Assembly (NCBI RefSeq): GCF_014359565.1
Contig: NZ_JACIZD010000003.1
Span: 1-64,000, forward strand
DNA length: 64,000 nucleotides
Source: Immundisolibacter sp.
GTDB taxonomy: Bacteria; Pseudomonadota; Gammaproteobacteria; Immundisolibacterales; Immundisolibacteraceae
Direction of reading: 5' to 3'
In this document: positions 3,617 through 21,300 of the stretch, piece by piece
Position numbering within the stretch: the first letter of the stretch is position 1
Layout of the letters: each line of letters starts with the position of its first letter
Made by a program: the position numbers and the translations under genes
Notes under the pieces: model-generated
Database searches by the model: none
Told to the model about the DNA's origin: nothing
What the model saw: the letters and a program-made list of their open reading frames with translations, nothing else

Positions 3617-4031
3617 GTCATTACTCCTAAATCAGGCCCGTCGGACCATCCGGCGGGCGAAGCGACAGGCCCGTCCGGCCGCACGGGTGTACAGCTGTTC
3701 GCGGCGCAGCTCGCGGTGGCGAAAGCAGGTGTTGAGGTGGTCGTTCACCAGGCCTACGAACTCCCGGTAGGCCTGGCAGATGGTGGAACCCGCGAAATTG
3801 CAGCGGGGCTTCCCCGAGGTCGTGGGCCAGCCTGCGCCGGGCGCAATAGGCGCTGCGCATTGCCCCGTATTGTGTTCGATTCGAGCGGCGTGGGTCACAT
3901 GGCGACGGTTCCGATCGCGGTCCGGGGGTTATGGTTTTGCCCAACCCCGCCCTGTGCGAAATGAACAATCTGGCCGATCTGTTCGACGGCCCGCCGCAGC
4001 GGCGCTGCTGGAGCTGTTCGAGGGCTGAGGG
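3617..4031. other. intergenic stretch containing R1 repeat and a possible remnant frame
   Basis: Apart from the repeat at 3839-3960, this stretch holds an 88-codon minus-strand frame (3898 down to 3632) whose C-terminal half (AYREFVGLVNDHLNTCFRHR) looks somewhat protein-like, while its N-terminal half is read through the repeat. It may be the tail of a small gene truncated by the repeat, or chance. No promoter could be assigned with confidence. Confidence 0.3.
3839..3960 (+). repeat. dispersed palindromic repeat R1, copy 2
   Basis: This is the second copy of the repeat seen at 1009-1119 and 8096-8211, in the same orientation. The block order is the same: a GCGCAAT/ATTG palindrome, a variable linker of about 40 bp, then the GATCGCGGTCCGGGGGTTA dyad and a CCCGCCCTGTGCGA end. 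It lies downstream of the GGDEF-EAL gene and upstream of rnk. Confidence 0.78.
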
Positions 4032-7001
4032 TCAGTGGCGCGTTTGACGCAGCCGGGTGCCAGACATCTGCGGGCGGTGGACTGCGGACGCGTTCGGGTC
4101 GGCGTCGCCGTCGTGCAGGCTCATCACCAGGCCGCCGAACTGGCCGCACATGCGCTCGTGCAGCGCGTACAGTTCGGCGATGCGGCCCAGGGCCTCCTGC
4201 GAGTGGCCCTGGGTGTGCAGCCGCATGAGCTCATCGGCCAGGTCGTGCATTTGCTGGTGCAGGTCCTGGATGGCGCGAAAGGCCGGCGAGCGGTCGTACA
4301 GCTCGCGGCCCTCGCCGCCGAGCCAGGTGCCGAAGCGACCGGCGTGGGCGCTGACCGTCGGCGGCGCGGACCGCGTGCCGCGCAGCCAGGCCTCGATCGC
4401 CCGGATCCAGGCGCGGTGTTCCAGGTCGCCCATCAGCAGCGGCTGGTGGTCGCGGGCGACGCGGGTTGCCGTCTGCCAGGCCTCGGGCGGGCGCCAGCCG
4501 GCGATCCAGTCGGGTAGCTCGGCCGCCGGCATGGGCCGGGCGATGCCATAGCCTTGCCCAAACTCGCAGCCCAGCTGCAGCAGCACGGCGCCTTGGGCGA
4601 CGGTTTCCACGCCTTCGGCGACGGCGGTGCGGCCGAAACCGCGCGCCAGGGTCAGCACGCACTCCAGGATCGGCAAGTTGTCGGCGTCGTCGAGCAGGTG
4701 GCGCACGAAGCTCTGGTCGATCTTGAGCGTTTCGGCCGGCAGGTGTTTCAGGTACAGCAGCGACGAGTAGCCGGTGCCGAAGTCGTCCAGCGCAAAGTTC
4801 ACGCCGATGTCGGCGCACTCGCGCATCAGCCCGGCCACGTGCTCGAGGTCCGCCAGGGCGATGGTTTCCAGCACTTCGATTTCCAGCGCCCCGCGGCCGA
4901 GCGTCGGGTGGGCCTGCAGCGCCGCGCGCAGCCGGGCCAGGAAATCGGGCTGCTGCAGATGATCGGCGCTGACGTTGACGCTGATCGGCAGCTCGAGCCC
5001 GCTGTGGCGCCACAGCGCCGCCTGGCGCAGGGCGGCGTCGATGACCCATTCGCCGAGTTCGACCGCCAAGGGGTGGTTTTCGATCACCGGCAGGAACAGC
5101 TCCGGCGCCAGCAGGCCGCGCTGCGGGTGTTGCCAGCGAATCAGCGCTTCGACGCCGATCACCTGCCCGGTGCGCAGGTTGACCTTGGGCTGGTAGTGCA
5201 GCACGAACTGGCCGGCGGCCAGCGCCCGGCGGATTTCTTCCAGGTTCTCGTGCCGGCTGCGGGCCGCCTGGTCGTGGCTGGCGTCGTAGATGTGGCAGCG
5301 GTTCTTGCCGGCCAGCTTGGCCTGATACAGCGCCTGGTCGGCCTGCCGCACCAGTTGATCGGCGTCGATCGGCTGGTCCTGCGGGTAGAACGTGACGCCC
5401 AGGCTGGCGGACACGCGCAGCTCCCCGCCGGTGCTGGGCACCGGTTCGCTGGCGGCCGCCAGCAGGCGCTCGAGCAGTGGCGAGCAGTCCTGGCCGCTGC
5501 GCAGATCGGTCAGCACGGCGACGAATTCGTCGCCGCCGATGCGCGCCAGGGTATCGCCCTGGCGCAGCACGTCGCGCATGCGGTGGGCGACGGCGATCAG
5601 CAGGGCATCCCCCCGGTTGTGGCCGTGGCGGTCGTTGATCGCCTTGAAGCCGTCCAGATCGATATAGACCACCGCCACGCGTTCGTCGCGCCGCGTCGCC
5701 GCGGTCATGGCCTGCTGCAGCCGGTCGGCCAGCAGTGCGCGGTTCGGCAGGCCGGTCAGGGCATCGTGATAGGCGATGTGCTCGAGCTGGCGCTGCTGGG
5801 TTTTCAACTGCGTGATGTCGGTCAGGATGGCGACGTGGTGCGTGACCTCGCCGGCCTCGTTGCGCGCCACGTTCACGTTCAGCGTGGCCGCATAGCGCTC
5901 GCCGCAGGCGCGCTGGCCGCGCAGCTCGCCCAGCCAGGTGCCGTGCTGCAGCAGGCTTTTGCGCACGTCCTCGACGGTTTCGCCGCCCAGGTAGTCGAAG
6001 TGCAGCTGGTGCGTGTAGCGCCCGACCAGCTCGGTATCGTCGGGGTAGCCGAGGATGCGCGCGAAAGCCCGGTTGGCGGCCAAAATGCGGCTGTCCGGGC
6101 CGGTGATCAGCACGCCCTCGCCGGCGTGCGTGAACACGCTGGCGGCGATGTCCATCCAGCGCCGGGATTCGCGCTCGGCGGTGATGTGGCGCACCAGCAC
6201 GGCGAAGCGCTGCGGGCCGGCGCTGGTGCCGATCAGGCCCGCCGACAGCGCGAACCAGCGCTCGCCCTGCGGCGTGGGCAGCGAAAATTCGGCGTTGTGC
6301 ACCTGCCCGTGCTGGGCGGCTTCGCGCAGCGCCTGCAGTATCGTTTGCGCGGCTGCCTTGGGCAGCGCCTCGGGTATCCGTTTGCCGACCAGTTGTTCAG
6401 GCGCGATCGCGGTGGTGCGCACAGTGGGCGCCCAGCTGTCCAGGACGAGTCCGTCGGCGTCGACCTCGAAAATCGGATAGGGGGTTGCCGACAATAGAGC
6501 CCGCTGGCGGGCCAGCGCCTGCTGGAGCGCTGCTTCGCCGGCAGCCAGGCGGCGGTTGCGGGTCGCCAGCAAGGCCAGCAGGGCCGCGATGGCCATTGCG
6601 GCCACGCCGGTGATGCTCAGCATGACCCGGTGCCGGGCCGACCATTCCCGCCAGCTCAGGGTCGATGCCAGGTCGCGGGGCGGCGTGTGCAAGGTGCGGG
6701 CCAGGCTCGACACCGGCAGGTAATCGACCGGCGGGGCAAGGGTGGCTGCCAGCGCCTGCCAGTTCAGGGCGTGCAACCGGGACCACTCCAGCCCGCCCGC
6801 GCGGGCCAGAATTTCCATCAGCCGCGCCGGTGTGCGGCGAAGCGGCGCCGACAGGTACGCTGCGAGCGGGCGATGACGGGCCGCGACGACTTCGGTAGGG
6901 CGCTCGGCCCCGACGCCAACCGTGAGGCCCGGCGCCGCACGGCTGGCCCCGGTGCACAGCAGCAAGGCGATGGCGAGACGCCTAGCCGCGTGCGCGGTCA
7001 C
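4032..7001 (-). CDS. membrane PAS-PAS-GGDEF-EAL-CZB cyclic-di-GMP enzyme
   Basis: A 989-residue signalling protein that probably makes and/or degrades cyclic di-GMP. The order is: signal-like segment (1-23), short periplasmic region (24-125), membrane helix (126-147), two PAS domains (about 165-280 and 285-400), GGDEF (GGDEF at 489-493), EAL (EAL at 618-620) and a C-terminal CZB-like helical domain (about 855-965). Both catalytic motifs are intact, and an RQGD inhibitory-site motif sits five residues before GGDEF. The periplasmic region starts like a PhnD-type sensor (GLTVGVGAERPTE) but is only about 100 residues, far too short for a full binding protein. In the CZB domain the usual zinc Cys in CxFGxW appears as Gly (GRFGTW), although an HxxxH pair is kept. 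It overlaps the upstream lipoprotein gene by 4 bp. Confidence 0.9.
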   Translation of the reverse strand: MTAHAARRLAIALLLCTGASRAAPGLTVGVGAERPTEVVAARHRPLAAYLSAPLRRTPARLMEILARAGGLEWSRLHALNWQALAATLAPPVDYLPVSSLARTLHTPPRDLASTLSWREWSARHRVMLSITGVAAMAIAALLALLATRNRRLAAGEAALQQALARQRALLSATPYPIFEVDADGLVLDSWAPTVRTTAIAPEQLVGKRIPEALPKAAAQTILQALREAAQHGQVHNAEFSLPTPQGERWFALSAGLIGTSAGPQRFAVLVRHITAERESRRWMDIAASVFTHAGEGVLITGPDSRILAANRAFARILGYPDDTELVGRYTHQLHFDYLGGETVEDVRKSLLQHGTWLGELRGQRACGERYAATLNVNVARNEAGEVTHHVAILTDITQLKTQQRQLEHIAYHDALTGLPNRALLADRLQQAMTAATRRDERVAVVYIDLDGFKAINDRHGHNRGDALLIAVAHRMRDVLRQGDTLARIGGDEFVAVLTDLRSGQDCSPLLERLLAAASEPVPSTGGELRVSASLGVTFYPQDQPIDADQLVRQADQALYQAKLAGKNRCHIYDASHDQAARSRHENLEEIRRALAAGQFVLHYQPKVNLRTGQVIGVEALIRWQHPQRGLLAPELFLPVIENHPLAVELGEWVIDAALRQAALWRHSGLELPISVNVSADHLQQPDFLARLRAALQAHPTLGRGALEIEVLETIALADLEHVAGLMRECADIGVNFALDDFGTGYSSLLYLKHLPAETLKIDQSFVRHLLDDADNLPILECVLTLARGFGRTAVAEGVETVAQGAVLLQLGCEFGQGYGIARPMPAAELPDWIAGWRPPEAWQTATRVARDHQPLLMGDLEHRAWIRAIEAWLRGTRSAPPTVSAHAGRFGTWLGGEGRELYDRSPAFRAIQDLHQQMHDLADELMRLHTQGHSQEALGRIAELYALHERMCGQFGGLVMSLHDGDADPNASAVHRPQMSGTRLRQTRH

Positions 7002-17633: not shown

Positions 17634-17688
17634 GTGAGCCGGCCGGTTGGCCGGTGGCGCGTCACGGTTTCCAACGGGAGCGCTGAAT

Positions 17689-17730
17689 AAATCCATCCTG
17701 GATTTCTCAGCGCCCGCCTCCCTGCGCTGC
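17689..17730 (-). repeat. dispersed repeat R2, copy A
   Basis: Read on the minus strand, these 42 bases match 38751-38792 on the plus strand at about 38 of 42 positions. The shared core is GCGGGCGCTGAGAAATCC. Both copies lie just after the 3' end of a gene (ppk2 and the UDP-glucose dehydrogenase gene). Confidence 0.65.
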
Positions 17731-17759
17731 GGGAAACGCTGAATACTTCAGCGTTTCCC
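17731..17759. terminator. perfect 12-bp hairpin downstream of ppk2
   Basis: GGGAAACGCTGA pairs exactly with TCAGCGTTTCCC around the 5-base loop ATACT. There is no U-run, so it is a hairpin of terminator or repeat type rather than a classic intrinsic terminator. Confidence 0.55.
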
Positions 17760-17982
17760 AAGGCACAAGCGCTCGCCGCCGCGGTAACGCTGGGCTTGGA
17801 TACAGCTTGCTGTAGCAGGTTTTCCGTAGAGCCAATACTTTCGATCATATGCCGGTGCGCGACGCAAACCGCCCCGGTCATCCCAGCCTTTGGAACCAAA
17901 TCGGCACGGCGAGCTTGCCCGCCCGTGCATCGCGCGGGGCCTGGAAAAGTGTGCCCGTTTCGGGTATGGTTTGGAGGTCAAG

Positions 17983-18366
17983 ATGACGCGCATCCTCAAG
18001 CGAAAGGATTTTGCGCGGTGGCAGGCGGGCGAAAGACTGTCCGATGCCGCCTTGTGCAAAGCGGTTCAGGAGATGGAAAGCGGTCTGATTGACGCGGACT
18101 TGGGCGGCTTTCTCTGCAAGAAGCGGGTTGCCCGACCCGGTGGCGGCAAGAGCGGCGGCTACCGCACGCTGCTGTCGGCCCGGATCGGTAGCCGCTACGT
18201 GTTCCTGCACGGGTTCCCCAAGAGCGACAAGGCGAACATCACGCAGGACGAGAAGAAGGCGCTGCAATTCGCCGGCAAGGTGTTCCTGGAACTGTCCGCC
18301 GAGGCTTTGGCGAAGGCGTTGCAGTCGGGCGTGTTATTGGAGGTGCATTGTGAGCAAGATCATTGA
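17983..18366 (+). CDS. RelE/ParE-superfamily toxin of a type II toxin-antitoxin pair
   Basis: A 127-residue protein with the pattern GGFLCKKRVARPGGGKSGGYRTLL and FLHGFPKSDKANI, typical of the COG4737/HigB-like branch of RelE toxins, which act as ribosome-dependent mRNA interferases. The last arm of the family (KALQFAGKVFLELSAEALAKAL) is present. GGAGG six bases upstream sets the ATG at 17983. Its 3' end overlaps the antitoxin by 17 bp, so the two are co-translated. The toxin comes first in the operon, as in HigBA-type modules. A small palindrome at the putative promoter suggests autoregulation by the antitoxin. Confidence 0.82.
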   Translation: MTRILKRKDFARWQAGERLSDAALCKAVQEMESGLIDADLGGFLCKKRVARPGGGKSGGYRTLLSARIGSRYVFLHGFPKSDKANITQDEKKALQFAGKVFLELSAEALAKALQSGVLLEVHCEQDH

Positions 18367-18652
18367 ATCCCTGCGTGGCGACCTGGCTGCGCTCCACGAA
18401 GCGGGAGCGATCAGCAAGGTGACGATGCGCGAGTTCGACGCCATCTGCCCGCCGCCGGTGCGGGAGTTCAGCGCTGCCGACATCAAACGCCTGCGCGAAC
18501 GGTTGAATTTCAGCCAGCCAGTGTTCGCACTCCATCTGCACACTACCGCTTCGACCGTGCGAAAGTGGGAGCAAGGCGAAACCCATCCCACCGGGCCTGC
18601 GCTCAAGCTGCTCAACGTCATCGCCGACAAGGGGTTGCAGGCAATTATTTGA
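18350..18652 (+). CDS. XRE-family antitoxin (HigA/YiaG-like)
   Basis: A 100-residue protein with a C-terminal helix-turn-helix (IKRLRERLNFSQPVFALHLHTTASTVRKWEQGE, about residues 44-76), as in HigA-like antitoxins that bind the cognate toxin and repress the operon. The GTG at 18350 is chosen because GGAGG lies six bases upstream, inside the toxin gene. A longer frame extends upstream but overlaps the toxin extensively and lacks a start signal. The module sits directly before the split tRNA gene. Confidence 0.83.
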   Translation: MSKIIESLRGDLAALHEAGAISKVTMREFDAICPPPVREFSAADIKRLRERLNFSQPVFALHLHTTASTVRKWEQGETHPTGPALKLLNVIADKGLQAII

Positions 18653-19049
18653 TCACGGCAAACAGTTCAGCGATTCCTCCCATTGCGCGCTTCACTTGCG
18701 TGGGATCTGCGCCAACGCAGCGGCCGTTGCCTGTCCAGCCGTCTCTCCCTGACTTCATCACCTTGTCCGCGATTGTAGCCCGCGGCCGTGTGCCATCGGG
18801 GCACGCCGGGCCGTGTCCTCGCTGCGCTGCGGGCCGCAGCACCCGGCGCTTTCCTCCTTGACGGCTTCCGTCCGCGCTCCTGACCGGTGCGGGCGATGAA
18901 CTCAGGAAAGACGCTGCCAACGAGGCCGGCCCAGGTCTCCGCGCCAACCCCACCGGAAAGCCGAAAGGCGGCGGCTCGAATTTTGTCCATGTTCTTCGCT
19001 TGACGAACATGAATAGGCCGCTCCTGCGTGAACAGGGGCGGCTCCGGAT
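18653..19049. other. gene-poor stretch between antitoxin and tRNA-Leu
   Basis: A 107-codon minus-strand frame (18990 down to 18667) starts MDKIRAAAFRLSGGVG and turns into an Arg/Ala-rich tail. It could be a degenerate small gene, but no family is recognised and it has no good ribosome-binding site. A 7-bp palindrome (CATGTTC 18988-18994 with GAACATG 19005-19011) and the hairpin at 19017-19042 lie just downstream of the tRNA. Confidence 0.35.
19017..19042 (-). terminator. hairpin just downstream of the tRNA-Leu gene
   Basis: The arms 19017-19026 and 19033-19042 form a 10-bp stem with one G-U pair and a 6-base loop, eight bases past the encoded CCA end of the tRNA. It could end tRNA transcription, but no U-run follows. 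Confidence 0.45.
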
Positions 19050-19362
19050 TGGTGCCCGAGGCCGGAATCGAACCGGCATGACCGTGAGGTCGAGGGATTT
19101 TCTTACCACTTCGACTTTCGCCGCCAGCGCAGGCGCTGTTCGTGGTCTGGAGCACGCCTTCACCATGGCCTAGCGGCCGCAGGTGCCCGCCGTCTGCTCT
19201 CTACACCTTCCCAGCCGGACGGCTCGGGCTTGGCTCGGCGTTGGCTCGGATGCCGGAGCATCCAGGGCGTTCGCCGACTTTGACGGGCTTCACCTCTGGG
19301 GTTTCCCCCGGAGGGCTCAAATTGTTCAAGTCCCTTGTGTCTACCGATTTCACCACTCGGGC
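19050..19362 (-). tRNA. tRNA-Leu(UAA), split in the anticodon by a group I intron
   Basis: The 5' exon is 19362-19328 (35 nt) and the 3' exon 19101-19050 (52 nt), giving an 87-nt tRNA. The acceptor arm GCCCGAG (19362-19356) pairs with CTCGGGC (19060-19054), followed by discriminator A and an encoded CCA. The anticodon stem AGGGA pairs with TCCCT around the loop CTTAAAA, so the anticodon is UAA. A long variable arm (GACC/GGTC) and the T-arm GCCGG-TTCGATT-CCGGC are typical of tRNA-Leu. The exons join exactly between U34 and A35. It diverges from recQ, whose start is about 130 bp away. Confidence 0.93.
19102..19327 (-). ncRNA. group I (IC3-like) self-splicing intron in tRNA-Leu(UAA)
   Basis: The intron is 226 nt and ends in G (19102), as group I introns do. 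The 5' exon GGGACUU can pair with an internal guide (GAG-CCC) shortly after the splice site, leaving a U-G pair at the cut. Conserved core blocks follow in order: CGGGGGAAACCCC, GTCAAAGTCGGCGAA, ACGCCGAGCCAAGCC, GAAGGTGTAGAGAGCAGACGG and CATGGTGAAGGC. In P7, AGCA (19198-19195) pairs with TGCT (19154-19151). Compared with the Azoarcus tRNA-Ile intron as I recall it (ACUA/UAGU), this is a compensatory change. No homing endonuclease is encoded. Confidence 0.9.
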
Positions 19363-19491
19363 GGCCGGTGCTGGCGCGGGCATGGTAACGCGGCGGCGCG
19401 CATCGGGGTCGCCTTTCAGGGCCGCGGCTGGGTACCTGGCGCGCTTGGTGTTCGCCGATCTGCGCCGGGTCGCCGCATAATTGCTGGCACC

Positions 19492-21298
<1,807 letters not shown>

Positions 21299-21300
<2 letters not shown>

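Follow-up and report, generated by a model that had tools for sequence, protein, structure and literature searches.

Small, ORF-less group I introns of the IC3 type interrupt the anticodon loops of tRNA-Ile(CAU) in Azoarcus BH72 and of tRNA-Arg(CCU) in Agrobacterium and Bartonella, and for the tRNA-Arg(CCU) intron of Bartonella bacilliformis splicing has been demonstrated both in vivo and in vitro (PMC7717549). Group I introns of cyanobacteria occupy tRNA-Leu(UAA). A third related system is provided by genomic islands of the anticodon-loop type, in which a tyrosine integrase crosses over in the anticodon loop, the tRNA gene is split and its halves lie at the island ends; ordinarily, the target gene is made whole again by attP, which contributes the missing part (Islander, PMC4383910). 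We analyzed a tRNA-Leu(UAA) gene in a 64,000-nt stretch of DNA from Immundisolibacter sp. (contig NZ_JACIZD010000003.1, positions 1 to 64,000; hereafter the window). Its intron resembles the IC3 introns in its small size, lack of an ORF, core motifs, GAAA loops on P2 and P9 and anticodon-loop site, but differs from them in its host, Leu(UAA), in its position, 34/35, and in P7 pairs altered by compensatory changes; its splicing is predicted from sequence, whereas that of the Bartonella intron was observed. With the cyanobacterial introns it shares the tRNA and, by sequence, the insertion site (ACTT/AAAATC), although the introns themselves are distant in sequence. Relatives of the window gene are carried by elements that resemble the anticodon-loop islands, except that the target is left in two halves and the element itself contains a complete copy interrupted by an intron. 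By itself, the window gene merely adds to an intron class that is already known. Considering the locus as a whole, we are fairly confident that it represents a working tRNA gene with a spliced intron, derived from an element as a replacement for the resident gene and persisting in the window as a relic.

ARAGORN with introns allowed recognized one gene, a tRNA-Leu(taa) of 87 nt mature length with a 226-nt intron, at 19050-19362 on the minus strand, in agreement with the boundaries and the U34/A35 insertion site proposed in the initial annotation. Plain ARAGORN, run without the intron option, called no tRNA anywhere in the 64 kb, as had been anticipated for default gene finders. The 5' exon (35 nt, 19328..19362, minus strand) ends at U34, and the 3' exon (52 nt, 19050..19101, minus strand) starts at A35 and encodes CCA; with the intron removed, they form a complete cloverleaf with a UAA anticodon, a long variable arm and CCA. 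The borders read ...AAGGGACTT, then the intron, then AAAATCCCTC, with ...GGGACTT immediately before the intron and AAAATCCC after it. The intron (19102..19327, minus strand), delimited by ARAGORN and recovered by the covariation and covariance-model analyses described below, ends in G (omega-G). An internal guide, UUUGAGCCC, read from the sequence at 19313..19321 (minus strand), could form P1 with GGGACUU of the 5' exon, with a U.G pair at the splice site and one A.C mismatch; its TTGAG motif is nearly invariant across 36 Leu introns. The group I landmarks described at the outset, namely the U before the 5' splice site, the terminal G and the guide, are thus all present. No homing endonuclease gene was found; the 226-nt intron is too short for one and contains no long ORF.

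The assignment to group I was examined with covariance models and by comparative alignment. The Rfam model RF00028 gave nothing at E ≤ 1 in the 1 kb around the gene and nothing at E ≤ 10 across the whole genome, an outcome that the initial annotation had nominally listed as counting against an intron. This miss points to a weakness of the model, since it assigns the Agrobacterium tRNA-Arg intron, a classic proven case, only 33 bits when its cut-off is 50, and fails to match an Azonexus gene that is 90% identical to the window gene. A match to RF00028 is a criterion of the tool and not a defining feature of the group I family, and the model was dropped as a test of the window intron, being uninformative for a subfamily whose proven members it scores poorly. 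A covariance model trained exclusively on introns of tRNA-Ile and tRNA-Arg matched the window intron with 86.7 bits (E = 6.3e-23), and by its sequence we class the intron as Azoarcus/Agrobacterium-type, IC3-like.

For the covariation test, 36 introns of Leu genes were aligned, and the window sequence served to draw the structure, in which P3 and P7 form a pseudoknot. Across the P2-P9 structure, both partners have changed in 45 of the 61 pairs and 89% of the cells are paired; the covariation score was 0.355, compared to 0.127 for shuffled controls and at most 0.087 with the partners slid. P3, P4 and P7 are paired in all 36 introns and the P9b pairs hold too, which strongly supports a foldable P3-P9 core. 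The two strands of P7, placed by the same alignment, are GAGCA (19195..19199, minus strand), whose invariant G-C pair is taken as the guanosine-binding site, and TGCTC (19150..19154, minus strand). Double changes occur at three of the five P7 pairs; the pairs 131-176 and 132-175, which are G-C and C-G in the window versus C-G and U-A in most relatives, show eight double changes each, which substantiates the earlier suggestion of a compensatory change in P7. Single-sequence folding of the window intron did not recover the native core (z −2.5), as expected for a pseudoknotted ribozyme.

Because the fold covaries and the Bartonella intron of the same kind splices, it is very likely that the window intron splices from its transcript, which would have to lose the 226 nt to give a tRNA. 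In the predicted reaction, guanosine would attack after U34, and the freed U34 would then attack after the omega-G, so that the joined exons would form a tRNA reading UUA. A search of the 3.09 Mb genome with RF00005 found 42 intact tRNAs, including those for Leu with anticodons CAA, UAG, CAG and GAG, and no second tRNA-Leu(UAA) among them; the intact second copy considered at the outset was not found in this assembly. The 27-contig assembly is incomplete, since genes for Ile(GAU) and Ala(UGC) are missing as well. Moreover, UUA is almost absent from the window genes that were checked (none in about 4500 codons of eight genes, and one in relE), so the cell depends on this tRNA less than its description as sole reader suggests.

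To place the intron among its relatives, one core motif was scanned in GTDB genomes and was found in at least 117 stretches of DNA, from which 103 genes were classified. Among the matches listed, the hosts were Leu(UAA) in 42 cases, Arg(CCU) in 18 and a 'CAU' tRNA (Ile or fMet) in 14, the remainder being spread across several tRNAs; some of the ARAGORN calls for Phe, Ile, Ser, His and Stop resemble mis-split Leu or Arg genes, and those that the D-loop and the CTT/AAAATC exons clearly identified as Leu were reassigned. Leu(UAA) is the largest host class among the matches listed and occurs in alpha-, beta- and gammaproteobacteria and in some other phyla. The initial annotation had regarded an Azoarcus-like core in tRNA-Leu(UAA) as an unusual pairing, a view that this count does not support. 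Within the class to which the window belongs, the exact motif was present in 11 of 370 genomes. A tree built from 104 introns placed the window intron in a supported clade of 11 beta- and gammaproteobacterial Leu introns, nearest to those of Hydrogenophaga (L068), a member of the Lysobacterales (L046) and Azonexus (L066); the clade mixes Comamonadaceae, Azonexaceae, Alcaligenaceae and Rhodanobacteraceae. The cyanobacterial Leu introns formed a separate long branch. Direct transfer from cyanobacteria may have occurred, but the tree lends it no support and gives no rejection, and the same holds for common descent at this tRNA site: the AU test (p = 0.38) did not separate an arrangement in which these Leu introns group with the cyanobacterial ones from one in which they group with those of tRNA-Ile.

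Several other members of the set deserve mention in their own right. Six patescibacterial sequences (L052, L073, L087, L096, L107 and L130) carry the same core motif in tRNA-Phe or tRNA-Thr and lie on a separate, very long branch. One close relative of the window gene (L002, G014:C7:550-868; 81% identical) has C34 in place of U34, giving the anticodon CAA, and a P1 that ends in C-G and not U.G; an intact Leu(UAA) is also present in its genome. A sequence from Coriobacteriia (L054) resembles it.

The history of the window gene was reconstructed from its neighborhood. The adjacent recQ (19492..21300, plus strand), whose protein is 97% identical in the congener G002, is a conserved neighbor that fixes the locus as orthologous. 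In two congeners (G001 and G002), the tRNA-Leu(UAA) next to the orthologous recQ has no intron, and the tRNA-Leu(UAA) of a genome from the same family (G003) also lacks an intron, which dates the change to the lineage of the window. The upstream flank (19363..19512, minus strand) matches G002 at 93% identity as far as the first base of the tRNA, and divergence begins exactly at the tRNA 5' end. Downstream, the segment between the tRNA and PPK2 (17661..19049) is wholly unlike that of G002, and blastn collinearity, present on both sides, returns at 17660. The exons are only 85% identical to those of G002 but 99% identical to L068 and 97% to L066, with a 5' exon that is the same or almost the same in L066, L046 and L068, and the intron is 90% identical to L068, a copy located in a Hydrogenophaga element. 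A terminator-like hairpin of 33 nt directly 3' of the tRNA (19017..19049, minus strand) is shared with L046 (31/33 matches) and L068 (30/33) and is absent from the other relatives inspected. From these comparisons, we consider it highly probable that the whole gene horizontally replaced a resident intronless gene, and probable that the source was an integrative element; the initial annotation had missed both this exchange and the seating of the relatives in integrative elements. No half of the resident tRNA was found in the window and no integrase near the gene, and the layout seen in islands, with the intron gene between 5' and 3' halves, is absent. It is for its exons, intron and hairpin, which correspond to those of element-borne copies, that we read the window gene as a probable domesticated relic of mobile DNA. 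The variable segment also contains a RelE-type toxin gene and an overlapping HTH gene (17890-18652; PF06296 and PF01381), and elsewhere in the window positions 3828-6799 span about 3 kb where G002 has about 0.3 kb.

The same exchange could have been brought about by plain homologous recombination or transformation of the whole gene, with no integrative element in this lineage. The junction coincides exactly with the 5' end of the tRNA and no att site is left, as this explanation would have it, and exchange of the entire locus was reported for cyanobacterial tRNA-Leu introns (Rudi 2002, cited in PMC3984707). On the other hand, the downstream flank was replaced too, within a hypervariable segment, and the hairpin is common only to element-borne copies among the relatives inspected. 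We regard this route as a possibility of rather low probability.

Origin of the gene from an integrative element is favored by the surroundings of its relatives. A survey of tRNA remnants covered 51 rows, one of which proved to be an artefact, leaving 50 Leu intron genes, all chosen for having the intron. A truncated tRNA-Leu 5' half was located up to 2.3 kb upstream, on the same strand, in 14 of these 50, and no nearby remnant was seen for the other 36. There was no genuine downstream or opposite-strand remnant among the 50 genes: two further hits were the opposite-strand intron genes of one locus (L042), and an intact Leu(CAA) in L125 was excluded. The same search returned no remnants for 18 tRNA-Arg introns. 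In the two loci that share the hairpin (L046 and L068), the truncated 5' half, from another tRNA-Leu(UAA), ends in ...GGACTTAAAATC, and conjugation genes lie nearby, of the TrbI and CagX/TrbG types in L068 (Pfam) and as TrbG/TrbI-like ORFs in L046/L204 (by inspection).

The missing 3' halves were recovered in six cases. A matching 3' half was found on the same contig and strand in L060 (an element of approximately 26 kb), L045 (34 kb), L128 (31 kb) and L069 (2 kb), and on another contig in L119 and L061; in the first four the intron gene lies between the 5' and 3' halves, and the last two are consistent with this arrangement across contigs. The acceptor strand of these 3' halves complements that of the 5' half, and when the six pairs of halves were rejoined, each was recognized as a perfect tRNA-Leu(UAA) with no intron. 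The attL/attR cores common to both halves, compared for five pairs, range from CTTAAAA to CAGCGGACTTAAAATC (7-16 nt), and the CTTAAAA of the anticodon loop is inside every one. Genes for tyrosine integrases adjoin the 3' half (attR) in L045 and L128; in L060, L031 and L061 they lie between the intron gene and the 5' half (attL). The element cargo comprises a restriction-modification gene and genes for efflux, metals, partition and type IV secretion. Truncated 5' halves of the same tRNA type are also located upstream of intron-bearing Ile(CAU) genes (L034, L074 and L124) and of a Thr(UGU) intron gene (L141), at 145-218 nt in this set. The L042 locus carries two intron-bearing tRNA-Leu genes on opposite strands within about 0.5 kb, one of them with a truncated 5' half upstream.

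Intron-only movement has been proposed for cyanobacterial and tRNA-Arg introns, and mobility independent of the host gene is known for group I introns. Accordingly, the intron alone might have homed or transposed into the resident tRNA-Leu(UAA), the nearby islands being coincidental in view of the status of tRNA genes as integration hot spots; that the window has no att remnant and the tRNA-Arg introns have no remnants would fit such a history. However, the exons changed together with the intron, the 3' hairpin moved too, and the intron has no long ORF. In addition, the remnants found in relatives are always upstream on the same strand and are accompanied by matching 3' halves and integrases. 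We therefore judge intron-only homing to be unlikely. Vertical inheritance of an old proteobacterial Leu intron, lost by the congeners, would agree with the well supported beta/gamma clade, but is very improbable given the intronless genes of G001, G002 and G003, the presence of the exact motif in so few genomes of the class and the mixture of four families in the clade. That the gene is a decayed, non-splicing pseudogene is the least plausible reading of all: the RF00028 score is poor and splicing here is predicted from sequence, but all tRNA arms are intact, the core fits the tRNA-Ile/Arg intron model with high confidence, pairing is kept in P3, P4, P7 and P9b, and the genome search gave no other Leu(UAA) gene.

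Under the preferred interpretation of an element-derived replacement, the most likely source would be an integrative conjugative element from a family whose insertion site is the anticodon loop of tRNA-Leu(UAA). Crossover by the integrase in CTTAAAA would split the resident gene, while the element would bring a complete intron-bearing tRNA-Leu(UAA) as a replacement, and the host would live on its spliced product. In the replacement gene the intron divides the sequence as CTT^AAAA, leaving no contiguous core; since the same core is split, the replacement is presumably no longer a target of the integrase. At the window locus, both the body of the element and the split halves would have been lost and the replacement gene kept; recombination of the resident 5' half with the 5' exon of the incoming gene may have deleted the DNA between them, which would produce precisely the junction observed.

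More generally, we lean towards the view that anticodon-loop group I introns serve as att-site masks for integrative elements and temperate phages, in that the masked copy would keep the cell alive and escape recombination by the element's own integrase. This view is held with reserve because the set, having been picked for the intron, gives no frequency of intronless replacements for comparison. If true, a self-splicing intron makes an essential tRNA gene safe for the very element that targets it, which would help to explain the anticodon-loop position and sporadic spread of proteobacterial tRNA introns and would bear on how islands insert in single-copy tRNA genes. Among the open PMC papers searched on tRNA introns and islands, no account of intron-bearing replacement tRNAs in islands was found, and priority may lie with older work (Paquin 1997, 1999; Rudi 2002; Ikawa 2000). 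An island-borne replacement gene would be overlooked in tRNA lists made with intron-blind tools.

A comparable arrangement was found in an isolated phage. In Gordonia phage Daredevil (NC_048021.1, 40365-43501; L391), an integrase is followed by a free anticodon arm and an intron-bearing tRNA-Lys(UUU). The free copy of the tRNA-Lys anticodon arm, CGGACTTTTAATCCGC, is approximately 150 bp from the intron gene, which is unannotated and in which a 238-nt group I intron splits the same core at 34/35. This layout looks like an attP together with a replacement tRNA, and it lends independent support to the proposed mechanism. According to a 2014 review, the phage introns seen until then were all in protein genes (PMC3984707). 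In IMG/VR, at least 120 viral contigs contain the core (L246-L365); 37 of 67 classified genes were called tRNA-Leu(UAA), with introns mostly of 196-263 nt at the same site.

Intron-blind tRNA finders and RF00028 both miss such genes, even on common plasmids and phages. In PLSDB, 1282 records match the window gene. Intact, unannotated intron-bearing tRNA-Leu(UAA) genes occur on the resistance plasmids pCTX-M3 (NC_004464.2; L377, 6001-6248) and L378, where they adjoin an AAA-ATPase gene and aac(3)-IId. In the tree, this plasmid intron is nearest to that of the element-borne alphaproteobacterial L045.
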